From: a virus
IMG/VR virus record: IMGVR_UViG_3300032282_005473
Location: 1 to 21,725 of that record
DNA: 21,725 bases
Direction: 5' to 3' (one strand)
Both the position numbers and the translations under genes were made by a program. The notes below the pieces were generated by a model. The model was not told the DNA's origin. It saw only the letters and a program-made list of their open reading frames with translations, and did no database searches. Below, in pieces: positions 1-17,474 of this stretch; the stretch's first letter is position 1, and every line of letters starts with the position of its first letter.

Positions 1-1064
1 TAGTTTAAACCATAATAAGAGTCTTCAATATTTAAATCATCTAAGTTAAAATCTTTTGGTGTATCAAGAGGTAATTCACCTCTAAACTGTGACCTAACTT
101 GTGCACGTACCCTGACTGTATAATCTAGGTTTCTCTTCTTAGCATCTTTTAATTTCTCATCAAAAGATTTACCTGTCTCATCCTTCTTGGTTTGTTGTTT
201 TCTGATTGCTGCCGCCTCAGAACCTTTTGGTTGTGAACCGTGTAAAGGTAAAGCAAAACTATCATCAGTTCCCCAAGCTAACATATCATCAACATCCATT
301 CTTAAACCAAGTTCTCTTGCCTCTTCTGTTGAACCGACAACCTTTGCGTATCTCATACCTTCAACATTGATTAATTCTTCGTTGTCTTCATCCATTGAAG
401 CAATCAATTTAAAGTTTCTAGGTATTTGATTCTTTCTATTTAACCAATATGGTAAAGATACTGTGTAAGCGTAAAACAATGTGCCAGGCATTCTTCTTGC
501 AACTTCTAACCAAGCGTCAAAATATTCTTGACTAAAGAAATCTCCTGCCTCATGAATTCTAAATAAATCTGTATTTTGTAATCCGTGGAATTTTAACGAC
601 TTAATAATTAAGTTTGCCATCTCCTCAGATGTTTTAAATTTGTTTAATAACTTTAAATTACTAAAAGCTTGGATGTTTGCCCCAGGGTATTGAGCTTGTG
701 CTCTACCTGCGTAACAAAGATATTTCGCACCTTTAGCTAATTGATAATTCTTTTCCCAACTAGCAGGTTTTTCAAACTTACCTTGTTTAGTTGTACCTTT
801 CCACTTTGCCGGTAATGTTTTACATTGTTTGGCAAAAGGACAAGTATACCCAGCTGGTAATGAGAAATAAGGCCACTGTAGTTTCATATTCCCGTTTGAG
901 AAGTTTAAAACACAATCCTTTGTTGGGTCAACTCCCATTTCTTCAGGTTCAGATAAGTCGGTTTGTTCTTTACCACCGATATGACCCAATGGATCAAAAT
1001 TTTCATCTGCCTCAAAAATGTGGTAGATATCTTCTTTTAATATTTTTTTAATTAAGTTTTTCAT
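1..1064 (-). CDS. Gp88-like phage protein, 3' end outside window
   Basis: The frame opens at ATG 1064 and stays open for 354 codons to the window edge, so the C-terminus is missing. The protein begins MKNLIKKILKED, nearly identical to the start of the next gene upstream (MKELIKKILKES), then has a cysteine-bearing region (GYTCPFAKQC, and CYAGRAQAQYPG about 50 residues later) and the segment FRIHEAGDFFSQEYFDAW. A spaced-cysteine region followed by FR-H-GD-FxSxEYxxxW is what I remember of the phage Gp88-like family, whose biochemical role is not known to me. The start lies 1 nt after the stop of the preceding gene, so it is the last visible cistron of an operon running leftwards. The N-terminal tag suggests a virion-packaged protein; that part is inference. 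Gene reality is near certain, the family call moderate. Confidence 0.8.
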   Translation of the reverse strand, partial: MKNLIKKILKEDIYHIFEADENFDPLGHIGGKEQTDLSEPEEMGVDPTKDCVLNFSNGNMKLQWPYFSLPAGYTCPFAKQCKTLPAKWKGTTKQGKFEKPASWEKNYQLAKGAKYLCYAGRAQAQYPGANIQAFSNLKLLNKFKTSEEMANLIIKSLKFHGLQNTDLFRIHEAGDFFSQEYFDAWLEVARRMPGTLFYAYTVSLPYWLNRKNQIPRNFKLIASMDEDNEELINVEGMRYAKVVGSTEEARELGLRMDVDDMLAWGTDDSFALPLHGSQPKGSEAAAIRKQQTKKDETGKSFDEKLKDAKKRNLDYTVRVRAQVRSQFRGELPLDTPKDFNLDDLNIEDSYYGLN

Positions 1065-1065
1065 T

Positions 1066-1491
1066 TTAAGTTTCAATTAAACCTTCTACGTCTTCACCAT
1101 TTATATAATCAGTTAATATATTATAAACTAATTCAAAATATTTTGTACTGTACCAATCTATAACTTCAATAACGTATTTAAATCTAGGTGTTCTTATAAG
1201 GGTGACATTATCGTGGTCCTCATTTTTTGAAATATCTACGGGAATTGAGAAATTTTCATCCCATTCAGGGGTTGCCATACCTGTATAACCATCTACACTC
1301 CACCAATACACAACACCATCAAATCTATCTTGGGAAATACTCCAACCTTTATATTCTTTAACCTTACTAATAACATCTACAATTATATCATATCGATGTT
1401 GGTCGTCTCGAACTAATTCAGGTTCACTAGTATCCACCCAACTAAAATCTTCTTCAGATTCTTTTAATATTTTCTTTATTAATTCTTTCAT
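1066..1491 (-). CDS. Unknown phage protein with N-terminal MK-LIKKILKE tag
   Basis: This 141-residue protein is not recognised. Residues 1-11 (MKELIKKILKE) match the neighbour downstream at 10 of 11 positions and end in LKE, which resembles the (L/I)xE cleavage signal of T4-type prohead proteases. The rest is acidic and rich in aromatic residues (GWSISQDRFDGVVYWWSVDG, then FKYVIEVIDWYSTKYFELVY), consistent with a small globular alpha/beta domain. It has no signal peptide, membrane segment or cysteine cluster. It starts 2 nt after the stop of the gene upstream and is followed 1 nt later by the Gp88-like gene, so it is translated from the same message. A role inside the virion is a guess based only on the tag and the neighbours. 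Confidence 0.8.
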   Translation of the reverse strand: MKELIKKILKESEEDFSWVDTSEPELVRDDQHRYDIIVDVISKVKEYKGWSISQDRFDGVVYWWSVDGYTGMATPEWDENFSIPVDISKNEDHDNVTLIRTPRFKYVIEVIDWYSTKYFELVYNILTDYINGEDVEGLIET

Positions 1492-2953: not shown

Positions 2954-3562
2954 ATGAACTTATCAAAAATATCATTAAATCTTTTAACGGAAGAAGTTTA
3001 TCTTCAAGGAATGGTTAATACTATGTATGAAAACATTATGAAAGAAGAAATAGAACCAAAAGAAAAACATTTGGTGAAGAAAGTTGCTGACGATTTTAAG
3101 TTAAACGCTGATTTTATTTTCACTTATAGTGTTGGTATTTCAGGTTTTATCGGTCCTGTTAAAACTCTTTTAGAAAATAAAGGAATAAATGTTACAGAGT
3201 ATGATGTAACACTTTTATTAATGGTTGTTATTTATATTTTATTGTCAAAATCAAATGAGGATATTAAAAAATTAATGGAAGGTTTAAAAGATAAAGGTTT
3301 GGATTCTGAAGTTAAACCTGTGTTGAGATTTGTTACAAAAACAATTGGTTTATTTAAAATTATAGGTAAAAAATTTGGTCTAGCAATTCAATCATTAACA
3401 GATATATTAGCATTCACATTTTTATCTGTCCCAGTTATGAATATTCTAAGGGATTTGGCTGACGATAAAGGTTTCAGTATTGACCGTGTAGATGATTTAT
3501 TAATGGGTTTAACATTATCTGCTGGAGCCTACACACTTAAAAATATTATGAAAAGAAAATGA
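2954..3562 (+). CDS. Unknown membrane-associated phage protein
   Basis: This 202-residue protein is not recognised. I start it at ATG 2954 (MNLSKISLNLLTEEVYLQG) rather than the in-frame TTG at 2948. The N-terminus is amphipathic and contains LLTE, again an (L/I)xE-like site. Hydrophobic stretches follow: FIFTYSVGISGFIGP, then VTLLLMVVIYILLS, then LTDILAFTFLSVPVMNIL, with a weaker one near the C-terminus, so it probably touches or spans a membrane. The C-terminus is basic (KNIMKRK). Its stop overlaps the start of the next gene by 4 nt (ATGA), so the two are translationally coupled. It is divergent from the tagged-protein operon at 2896. It could be a membrane-active virion protein or a host-modifying protein; nothing decides between them. 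Confidence 0.75.
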   Translation: MNLSKISLNLLTEEVYLQGMVNTMYENIMKEEIEPKEKHLVKKVADDFKLNADFIFTYSVGISGFIGPVKTLLENKGINVTEYDVTLLLMVVIYILLSKSNEDIKKLMEGLKDKGLDSEVKPVLRFVTKTIGLFKIIGKKFGLAIQSLTDILAFTFLSVPVMNILRDLADDKGFSIDRVDDLLMGLTLSAGAYTLKNIMKRK

Positions 3563-4008
3563 TAGTAGTTAATTTTGACCCACCTTTAGAAAGAAAAGAC
3601 TTTGAAATTGTTCTAACAAAGGTCCAAGAAATGTTTCCAGATTGGGAATGGTGTGGTAACACAGGTACGCCAACCGTTAAAAATAGAGAAAGAATTCTTT
3701 CAGGAGCTATGAAAAACCAAAACTCTTCTGGTTATGGTGCACCAATTTATACTGAGGAAATAGGTTCTTTAATATATTACGGTAGATTCAAACATTATGG
3801 TGAAGCTGATTGTTTGGCTTATAGTGGTGGTTGGAGTCAAGCCGACACTGATAGTTATATCAGACAAGGTCATGATGTTAAAGTTCTTGATGGTTGGGAA
3901 ATAGTAAGACATGGTAGTTTAGATACCGAAGATATTTTTAACTCTTTAAGTGAGTCTACATTAAAAAGAATCATTAAAGAATCTATTAAAGAGTCTAAGC
4001 TTTCTTAA
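3559..4008 (+). CDS. Unknown phage protein with C-terminal RIIKES tag
   Basis: This 149-residue protein is not recognised. Its body (residues 1-125) is compact, with several tryptophans and glycines (FPDWEWCGNTGTPT, GSLIYYGRFKHYGEADCLAY, SGGWSQADTDSYIRQG), suggesting a small folded domain. The last 20 residues, LSESTLKRIIKESIKESKLS, strongly resemble the N-terminal tags of the genes at 1064, 1491, 2246 and 2896 but sit at the opposite end. The start overlaps the preceding gene by ATGA. The 3' end overlaps the convergent gene at 3995-4225 by 14 nt, which leaves no room for a terminator. The shared tag suggests the protein goes to the same place as the tagged set. Confidence 0.8.
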   Translation: MIVVNFDPPLERKDFEIVLTKVQEMFPDWEWCGNTGTPTVKNRERILSGAMKNQNSSGYGAPIYTEEIGSLIYYGRFKHYGEADCLAYSGGWSQADTDSYIRQGHDVKVLDGWEIVRHGSLDTEDIFNSLSESTLKRIIKESIKESKLS

Positions 4009-15571: not shown

Positions 15572-16102
15572 TTAATCTTTATTAAAATTAGATATTAGTT
15601 TACAGAAAGTCAACATGTCTTCATGTGTCATATTGTTTTTAGCGTAATTACAGGCAATACTAATAAACTGTATATTATCTTTGATGTAACCTTTTTTCGA
15701 GTCTATCCTATCTAGTGAAGCTGTTGTTATACTACCACCTTTTTTTTGTGGATGATTTAATTTGACCCCACTATATACACAAATACCGTTTTGTTTTACC
15801 CATTGTTCTAACAAATCATCTAAAGTTATATCACATTCTTTGTCTCTACTTTTAGCTTTAGCCATATATCTTCTAAAACCGGTGTATTTATCCCTTTTAT
15901 TACCACTAAAGTTTATTAAATTATCTTTATGTAAATCAACATAGTTTAATAAATGTTCACTGTGTACCTTGCCGACACAACTTCGACTACAATAATTTTC
16001 TCTACCAATTTTCAAATTCCTGTCCACCTCTGACTTATCTTTTAAAAATTGTTTACCACAATTAGGGTTTGAACAGGTTACTTCTATTTGTTTTCTCTTC
16101 AT
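15572..16102 (-). CDS. HNH-type endonuclease downstream of the tmRNA gene
   Basis: I start this 176-residue protein at ATG 16102 (MKRKQIEVTCSNPNCGKQFL); a TTG 27 nt upstream is the only earlier in-frame start. Residues about 9-50 form a zinc-binding module with CxxxxC and a later CSRSC. The C-terminal part has the layout of phage HNH nucleases of the ASLDRID class: GICVYSGVKLNHP, then TASLDRIDSKKGYIKDNIQF, then NYAKNNMTHEDML. Such proteins are commonly free-standing or intron-linked homing endonucleases. It lies on the same strand as, and 84 nt beyond, the intron-bearing tmRNA gene, separated by the tmRNA terminator, with its own ATATTTAT box 5 nt before the ATG. It may mobilise the tmRNA intron, which has no reading frame of its own; this is inference. 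Confidence 0.82.
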   Translation of the reverse strand: MKRKQIEVTCSNPNCGKQFLKDKSEVDRNLKIGRENYCSRSCVGKVHSEHLLNYVDLHKDNLINFSGNKRDKYTGFRRYMAKAKSRDKECDITLDDLLEQWVKQNGICVYSGVKLNHPQKKGGSITTASLDRIDSKKGYIKDNIQFISIACNYAKNNMTHEDMLTFCKLISNFNKD

Positions 16103-16115: not shown

Positions 16116-16157
16116 GACGACATCCACAAAAATTATCCTTATCCACATAAAACAAAA

Positions 16158-16177
16158 AACCCCACAAAAGTGGGGTT
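16158..16177 (-). terminator. Terminator of the tmRNA gene
   Basis: AACCCCAC-TTTT-GTGGGGTT (minus strand) is an 8-bp stem running into a six-T run, starting about 9 nt after the mature 3' end of the tmRNA. Confidence 0.88.
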
Positions 16178-16203
16178 CTAGTTAGTGGAGGTGGAGGGAT
16201 TCG

Positions 16204-16432
16204 CTAATACTCAATAATTTTCATTACTGTTCGGACTATATCATCATCTCATTGAGATGTTGGACGCTCTAGTTGGTATTACTTTATGTCGCCATAAAAC
16301 CCAATAGTCTCTGAACCTTCCTAACTCTGTAGGCTTGGCTGCTGATTGACATATTATAGTTGACTATAACTTAGTGTTCCAGCAATTCATCCAATTTTTA
16401 AAATAACGTCACCGTTAAGTGGGTCCAAATTA
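16204..16432 (-). other. Group I intron in the tmRNA T-loop (229 nt, no ORF)
   Basis: The 5' exon ends GGGTT and the intron carries the guide GACCC (16425-16421), giving P1 with a U.G pair at the splice site. The last intron base is G (16204). P3 is GACGTT (16410-16405) with AGCGTC (16268-16263). P4 is TGCTG with CAGCA. P7 is GACTAT (16309-16304) within GTTCAGAGACTA, a typical R element, with ATAGTC (16239-16234). P8 is CATCTC-AAT-GAGATG (16259-16245). P9 is CAGTAAT-GAAA-ATTATTG (16229-16212). An extra hairpin TTTATG-GCGA-CATAAA lies between P7 and P3, as in subgroup IA. Both GNRA-type loops could make tertiary contacts. The small size and lack of a reading frame mean any homing enzyme must be encoded elsewhere. 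Confidence 0.95.
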
Positions 16433-16630
16433 AACCCTCGTCTTGTTTCATCTTACTAATACCTTCTACATGCTTAGGATAAAGTTTTCTAACTTTCCAA
16501 AATAAATATACTTTTCACACCGCGTATATCAGGACGGTGATAGTAGTTCAACTTGGCCACTATGCCATCACTTTTTTGATAACCTTCTGTTCCTAGGTAT
16601 GTTATCTACCCGATGTAGAGTTTAATCTAA

Positions 16631-16696
16631 TTAAGCTACTACTTCTGCACCTTCAGTCACAAAGTGACCTACAGTTGCGTTTGCGAAAACATCGCC
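16631..16696 (-). other. Predicted tmRNA proteolysis-tag frame
   Basis: The frame after CTCGTAAAAA most likely resumes at GGC (16696) and runs 21 codons to TAA (16633-16631). The peptide starts GDVFANATVG and ends TEGAEVVA. The resume codon is set by analogy with Bacteroidota tags that begin Gly-acidic; the same frame is also open for several codons further upstream. Typical tags have about 8-12 codons and end in LAA. Two short hairpins (GCGA/TCGC and GTCAC/GTGAC at 16668-16656) lie inside the frame. Confidence 0.7.
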
Positions 16697-16810
16697 AGTT
16701 GAATTTTGAAAGTTGGTTTTTACGAGCCTACCTAACAAGTCTCGACATGCTTACTTACTACTAATAATGACCAATCAATACCGGTCACCCCCATAATTCA
16801 AAGAACACTA

Positions 16811-16842
16811 CAAATATAGTAATAATCTTTAAAACAGTCAAT
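16811..16842 (-). promoter_or_regulatory. ssrA: Bacteroidota-type promoter of the tmRNA gene
   Basis: Minus-strand ATTG (16842-16839) and TATATTTG (16818-16811) are separated by 20 nt, close to TTTG-N19-21-TAnnTTTG, and lie 18 nt before the mature 5' end. Its upstream half touches the stop codon of the coiled-coil gene. Confidence 0.7.
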
Positions 16843-17087: not shown

Positions 17088-17474
17088 ATGAAGATATTAT
17101 TAAAAGAAAAGGATCAAGAACTATTAAAAGAATGTAAACGTCTTTTAAAGGAAAATCCGAATATTAAAAAACGTAAGTTAGATTTTAATGATTTAGAAAA
17201 AAGATTATACTACATAAAGGTATGGGTAATTACAGAATCTCAACCATTACATGTTTTAAAAGGTCATGATAAAAGATGTTTTAAAGGACCTTCCTGTTTT
17301 CATTTAGATCATATAGTACCAATTTCTCATGGTTTTTACAGTAAAATACCAGCAGAAAAAATAGGACATATTTCAAATTTAAGGTTTATTAGGTCAACAG
17401 TTAACATGCGTAAAGGACATAAATTAACCACTGAATCACACAGAGTATTAAGAAAAATAAAAAGAAGAATATGA
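17088..17474 (+). CDS. HNH endonuclease
   Basis: This 128-residue protein has a basic helical N-terminus (LLKECKRLLKENPNIKKRKL) and a compact HNH domain: CFKGPSCFHLDHIVPISHG at about 64-82, then HISNLRFIRSTVNMRKGHKL at about 94-113. The LDHIVPxSxG...NLRxxxxxxNxxKG arrangement gives the expected HxxH...N...N metal-binding set, and the CxxxxxC pair may stabilise the beta-beta-alpha fold. It should nick or cut DNA. It flanks the tmRNA locus on the side opposite the first HNH gene and is transcribed away from it. It may be a free-standing homing endonuclease; I see no intron next to it other than the one in the tmRNA. The 3' end faces the convergent protease gene. Confidence 0.85.
   Translation: MKILLKEKDQELLKECKRLLKENPNIKKRKLDFNDLEKRLYYIKVWVITESQPLHVLKGHDKRCFKGPSCFHLDHIVPISHGFYSKIPAEKIGHISNLRFIRSTVNMRKGHKLTTESHRVLRKIKRRI

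Follow-up and report, generated by a model that had tools for sequence, protein, structure and literature searches.

This locus raises the question of what a group I intron is doing in the tmRNA gene of a phage. tmRNA is among the most conserved bacterial RNAs and its T-arm is fixed by function. In the window, the whole stretch of DNA analysed here (21,725 bases, linear, an IMG/VR virus record), a tmRNA gene on the minus strand (16792-16183) is split in its T-loop by a group I intron of 229 nt. The initial annotation regarded this arrangement as a control point during infection. That proposal is unsupported, as alleles with and without the intron and a companion nuclease point to a mobile element. 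Most likely, the tmRNA of the phage was invaded by a mobile group I intron that has a free-standing HNH endonuclease, aimed at the T-arm, as its partner in collaborative homing.

The 5' exon (16433..16792, minus strand) was delimited from the sequence and 24 complete relatives. It comprises the 5' strand of the acceptor stem, the resume codon and tag frame, the pseudoknot region and the 5' half of the T-arm. Read by eye, it starts with GGGGGTGACCGGTATTGATTGG at 16792 and ends with GAGGGTT at 16433. The intron (16204..16432, minus strand) occupies internucleotide position 3 of the T-loop, between TT and CGAAT, as judged from RF00028, an alignment and covariation. The 3' exon (16183..16203, minus strand), also read by eye, is CGAATCCCTCCACCTCCACTA from 16203 to 16183 and consists of CGAAT, CCCTC, CACCTCC and A, followed by CTA. 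Removal of the intron in silico gives the predicted exon junction GAGGGTT-CGAATCCCTC (16433/16203) and a perfect T-arm, GAGGG-TTCGAAT-CCCTC, with a loop of the TTCRA type. The acceptor stem of seven base pairs (GGGGGTG/CACCTCC) contains a G3-U70 pair, which is the mark of alanine tRNAs. The discriminator A at 16186 is followed by CTA; thus, CCA is not encoded.

The tag reading frame (16631..16696 including the stop codon, minus strand) would encode GDVFANATVGHFVTEGAEVVA, with the resume codon at its start placed by alignment. A Bacteroidota-type promoter, TTG-N20-TATATTTG (16811..16841, minus strand), was located by comparison of upstream regions and a promoter scan. The boxA-like element GTTCTTTGA (16798..16806, minus strand) lies directly upstream of the tmRNA 5' end, and a strong intrinsic terminator (16156..16179, minus strand) follows immediately past the gene.

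The gene escapes the standard tools. ARAGORN reports no tmRNA in the window, either with the intron or after its removal, and the Rfam tmRNA model RF00023, proposed as a check in the initial annotation, has no match to the window gene even in a relaxed scan. Therefore, the assignment rests on comparison with relatives. In 2.9 million viral contigs, a pattern combining the intron core, the T-loop and the acceptor had 44 matches, of which about 30 are tmRNA genes split at the identical site, between GGGTT and CGA. BLASTN of the window exons against isolated phages gave short chance matches only. For comparison, 25 complete intron-bearing genes were used, window included. ARAGORN finds none of the 25 unspliced and 11 after splicing in silico, while random removal of the same length yields a mean of 0.25 calls among the 25 genes. 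Cuts shifted by -2 to +5 nt still yield 5-10 calls. The gain supports the location of the intron, not that of its exact ends.

A 21-codon tag frame of the type GNTFAKLQAVGLLRTEEVTVA, closed by a stop codon, is present in all 25 complete genes. Of the codon differences that involve a single base, 61.5% are synonymous when read in this frame, compared with 33% and 5% in the other frames; by this measure, the 21-aa tag is under purifying selection in the family. The acceptor and T-stem halves stand on opposite sides of the intron. Across 19 distinct sequences, 12 acceptor/T-arm pairs are paired in 99.6% of cases and show 31 double changes, compared with 8.0 in shuffles. G3-U70 is present in all 19. 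The reading as a tmRNA gene, made already in the initial annotation, is borne out by the restored T-arm and acceptor and by these relatives.

The intervening sequence is matched by the Rfam model Intron_gpI (RF00028) at 16443-16212 of the minus strand over the full length of the model (1-253) with 106.1 bits and an E-value of 5.3e-27. This match, a check also proposed beforehand, and the T-arm restored by removal confirm a group I intron in the T-loop. The conserved core P3-P9, of which P3, P4, P7, P8 and P9 could be drawn in the initial annotation, is recovered in the full-length match and by covariation: in an alignment of 20 introns, 31 of 55 consensus pairs show double changes that keep the pairing. 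The 5' exon ends with U (T16433), the intron ends with G (G16204) and, in P1, GGGUU can pair with the guide GGACCC, placing the splice-site U 16433 opposite G; all three features had been claimed. The exact boundaries rest on these U-G and omega-G rules and on intronless alleles, since the gain in ARAGORN calls is not nucleotide-specific. The coordinates first assigned, 16432-16204, proved correct. In two relatives (L143 and L163) the intron ends in A instead of G. Because about 30 further viral contigs are interrupted at this site and the acceptor/T-arm pairs covary, the intron is not a chance resemblance.

The two missed calls, the absence of an encoded CCA and the divergence of tag and body between the window gene and other members (64-71% identity in the exons) could be read as decay, the tmRNA and its intron being relics and the RNA not a working tmRNA in the window phage. 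This is very unlikely, considering the perfect acceptor with G3-U70, the perfect T-arm after splicing, the selection acting on the tag frame in the family, the promoter, boxA-like element and terminator in place, and the intron helices, all of which are intact in the window according to RF00028.

The intron closest to that of the window, with the same P4 sequence, is found in L123/L262, a contig of 125 kb whose tmRNA is unusual in having a tag frame of more than 30 codons. In several records (L120, L126-L128, L132, L136, L140-L142 and others) genes for a Clp-type AAA+ unfoldase and an M20-peptidase-like protein, identities read from sequence, lie about 2-4 kb upstream of the intron-bearing tmRNA. 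They could be linked to the fate of tagged proteins; neither was seen in the window. No SmpB gene was found in the intron-bearing records searched, most of which are fragments.

The motif TTG-N18-23-TAnnTTTG, which is the Bacteroidota promoter type, occurs in 1.7% of random stretches but in 17 of the 21 distinct upstream regions compared, among these 17 that of the window. The boxA-like sequence GTT[ACT]TTTGA stands directly before the tmRNA in all 21 genes with intron and HNH gene and in 55 of 123 genes with neither (0.4% by chance). crAss-like phages infect Bacteroidales, and relatives in these phages together with the window's own promoter bear out the Bacteroidota-type signals noted initially. 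The viral origin of the contig is likewise supported. A large terminase gene is present in 14 of the 21 longer records that were searched, the majority of which bear the intron. Among the window genes, GP88, DHFR and others are of phage type, but a structural hallmark gene was not identified; the assignment of the window to a phage is therefore based on IMG/VR and on the relatives.

Unrelated proteins of the window (3-1076, 1066-1491, 1494-2255, 2249-2896 and 3559-4008) have in common a short helical motif at a terminus, typified by MK.LIKKILKE. It is also found in neighbours of L072, L150 and L163 and may be a shared signal for sorting or packaging. Upstream of the tmRNA lies an HNH-like nuclease gene (17088-17474, plus strand; PHROG 5104/7785) that is different from the downstream one.

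The mobility of the intron is indicated by pairs of closely related alleles. L266 carries intron and HNH gene and L351 carries neither, with flanks that are 93-95% identical. L134 (intron and HNH gene) and L398 (HNH gene only) share about 96% identity in the surroundings of the locus. Their stretch from the T-arm to the HNH gene is divergent, with 73.5% identity in the HNH region, and all seven tmRNA differences fall within the last 32 of 395 nt. Co-conversion around a homing site would leave such a pattern, and so would mutations by which a cut site escapes the enzyme. The tmRNAs of L115, which has no intron, and L072, whose intron is read as position 2, are identical in 407 of 408 positions, and the two loci are 100% identical over 210 bases downstream. 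At the sequence level, the intron and the intron-HNH segment thus show allelic presence and absence together with local replacement of the T-arm. Intronless alleles such as L354, L351 and L115 exist as potential targets. In L072 and L088, the intron sits at T-loop position 2 (between GCGGGT and TCGATT) and constitutes a second form in phages, with tmRNAs nearly identical to intronless ones; this position was reported almost only from Anaerolineae (PMC11915505).

These alleles also bear on the idea of a regulatory switch, in which splicing is tied to the state of the infected cell and the tmRNA matures only when rescue is wanted. It is established tmRNA biology that an unspliced RNA without a T-arm could not be charged, and within the family the intron shows good conservation. 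However, the intron is dispensable, since some phage tmRNAs that carry it have near-identical counterparts that lack it. Furthermore, apart from the group I core, no ligand-binding domain and no additional conserved element is obvious in the alignment, and the association with a homing nuclease accounts for the presence of the intron. A switch is accordingly highly improbable. A mobile element, tolerated because it would splice itself, remains the preferred reading.

The HNH gene (15572..16102, minus strand) was missed in the initial annotation. It encodes 176 aa, and its ATG at 16102 is positioned 80 nt past the tmRNA 3' end. The product matches the endonuclease family PHROG 3322 (E-value 2.9e-22) and is the proposed homing partner of the intron. 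The closest match to its AlphaFold model (pLDDT 88) is PacI, a restriction enzyme of the HNH type (E-value 7e-4). Membership in the Endo VII/DHHRN group was rejected, as SLDRID is found where the central DHDH motif is expected.

In 19 of 29 position-3 loci with a placed intron, window included, the tmRNA is immediately followed by a gene of this family, in either orientation. It is next to three of the first 81 intronless tmRNAs (L026, L038 and L083). Approached from the nuclease side, 21 of the best 80 viral relatives adjoin a tmRNA 3' end, and 15 of these 21 tmRNAs are uninterrupted. The family is thus a tmRNA-flanking nuclease and not strictly an intron partner, and it may act alone, since it adjoins many intronless tmRNAs. 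After dereplication at 90%, HNH genes are directly downstream of 14 of 25 intron-bearing and 14 of 80 intronless tmRNAs (p=4e-4). The association weakens at 80% (9/18 versus 13/54, p=0.07) and 70% (5/13 versus 11/38, p=0.73). The statistic is sensitive to relatedness, as its significance is lost under stricter dereplication. Within the subset collected by 5' motif only, which contains few HNH-bearing loci, the association is not significant.

LAGLIDADG genes were observed in antisense orientation inside the tmRNA intron of L107, L040 and L044 and just downstream in L088 and L163; different nuclease families are therefore linked to the same T-loop site. These loci, the 15 uninterrupted tmRNAs and the loss of significance would suit an HNH enzyme that merely favours the downstream flank of tmRNA genes, the intron moving by other means such as LAGLIDADG enzymes. 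Such independence is rather unlikely, as HNH genes of the same family reside inside the tmRNA introns of two crAss-like phages, cr128_1 and cr6_1, and intron and HNH gene are jointly present in L266 and jointly absent in L351.

The best matches of the window nuclease among annotated phages are indeed crAss-like. In cr128_1, an unannotated tmRNA with the tag GNTYRAAA is interrupted at the identical T-loop position by an intron of about 870 nt, and the HNH gene within it is antisense. In cr6_1 (L254, NC_055894, 2700-4260), an intron of about 870 nt containing the HNH gene splits the T-arm between ACGGGTT and CGACTCCCGT; the last base of this intron would be A, not G. The GGGGCAT 5' piece that matches is located downstream, and in cr114_1, a relative of cr6_1, a permuted tmRNA is annotated whose T-arm is not interrupted. 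On these grounds, the cr6_1 tmRNA appears to combine circular permutation with an intron, a form that Table 3 of the 2025 tmRNA database (PMC11915505) does not list. The Rfam motif RAGATH-7-assoc was found just upstream of the cr6_1 intron, over the expected region of the tmRNA 3' piece.

Carriers of the HNH gene that have no intron mostly have altered T-stems; L398, with GAGCG, is an example of such a recoded allele. Among intronless tmRNAs, the inner T-stem GGG is present in 3 of 14 with HNH gene and 44 of 66 without (p=0.003; p=0.0008 at 80% and p=0.003 at 70% dereplication), the two groups having been recruited differently. Within the 5'-motif sample alone the contrast is not significant. 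There is about an even chance that the HNH family targets the tmRNA T-arm in general, with immunity gained either by a T-loop intron or by paired recoding of the T-stem, and with the intron reaching even a permuted crAss-like tmRNA, that of cr6_1.

For the window, the following course of events is proposed. The precursor would be transcribed from the Bacteroidota-type promoter to the terminator just past the gene. The intron would fold and excise itself with a guanosine cofactor, restoring the T-loop. The mature tmRNA would then accept alanine and, in rescuing ribosomes, add a 21-aa tag of the phage type. As self-splicing would restore the tmRNA, the insertion would cost the phage little. The downstream HNH protein would serve as a free-standing homing endonuclease that targets intronless tmRNA genes in the region of the T-arm. 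During co-infection it would cut the tmRNA gene of a rival phage, and repair would copy the intron-HNH segment into it. The carrier itself would be protected from its own HNH enzyme because the intron splits the target site, as in collaborative homing.

The initial annotation considered phage tmRNAs to be few and the combination with an intron to be unusual. Phage tmRNAs are not scarce in IMG/VR, and the window is not an isolated oddity: when viral tmRNAs were sampled by their 5' motif only, regardless of introns, 7 of 135 among the matches listed carried an intron (5.2%). The published database holds 883 intron-form genes among 97,179 (PMC11915505); the difference has a p-value of 2.6e-4 in what is a rough comparison, as the samplings differ. 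In addition, 84,980 genomes were scanned with the exact core and 3' patterns. The exact core pattern revealed no position-3 relative in them. Ninety matches of the 3' pattern in this collection were judged by inspection to be chance, except L195 (Anaerolinea).

T-loop group I introns in bacterial tmRNA genes, which the initial annotation had mentioned, are confirmed by the literature (PMC11915505), and phage tmRNAs are known as well. The phage lineage with its nuclease appears to be new; the open literature searched contains no description of an intron-form phage tmRNA or of a tmRNA-directed nuclease. The bacterial genes share with the window a group I intron in the T-loop, U at the 5' splice site and G at the 3' end of the intron. 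The site of the window is read as position 3 of that study, where it was reported from the class Bacteroidia only. In contrast, the genes described here are found in phage contigs, have divergent 21-aa tags and are accompanied by an HNH gene of a tmRNA-flanking family, whereas the bacterial homing endonuclease genes are of the LAGLIDADG type and lie inside the intron (4%).

Phage-encoded tmRNAs were reported from 402 of 18,146 phage genomes (PMC9004378) and from huge phages (PMC7162821). A tmRNA gene of the phage's own is common to those genomes and the window. No intron form was described in these studies, which used ARAGORN, a program that calls none of the 25 intron-bearing genes compared here. 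ARAGORN-based counts of phage tmRNA thus overlook intron-bearing genes. The Jug phages (PMC12363816) resemble the present ones in being Bacteroidota phages with many group I introns and stand-alone HNH genes. Splicing of their introns was shown by RNA reads (PMC12363816). Those introns interrupt protein genes such as terL and nrdD, with no mention of tmRNA.

The closest mechanistic parallel is F-CphI, encoded beside the psbA intron of cyanophage S-PM2, for which collaborative homing was shown (PMC6083498). Both systems combine a free-standing nuclease gene with an adjacent intron-bearing phage gene, and in both the intron is proposed to block self-cutting. Here, however, the putative target is a tmRNA gene, and the nuclease is a PacI-like HNH enzyme with SLDRID in place of the DHDH motif of Endo VII. 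Natural alleles of every state are available for testing: no element, intron, HNH gene, both, or recoded target. A nuclease-intron pair aimed at phage tmRNA would, if true, provide a clean example of collaborative homing beyond psbA.
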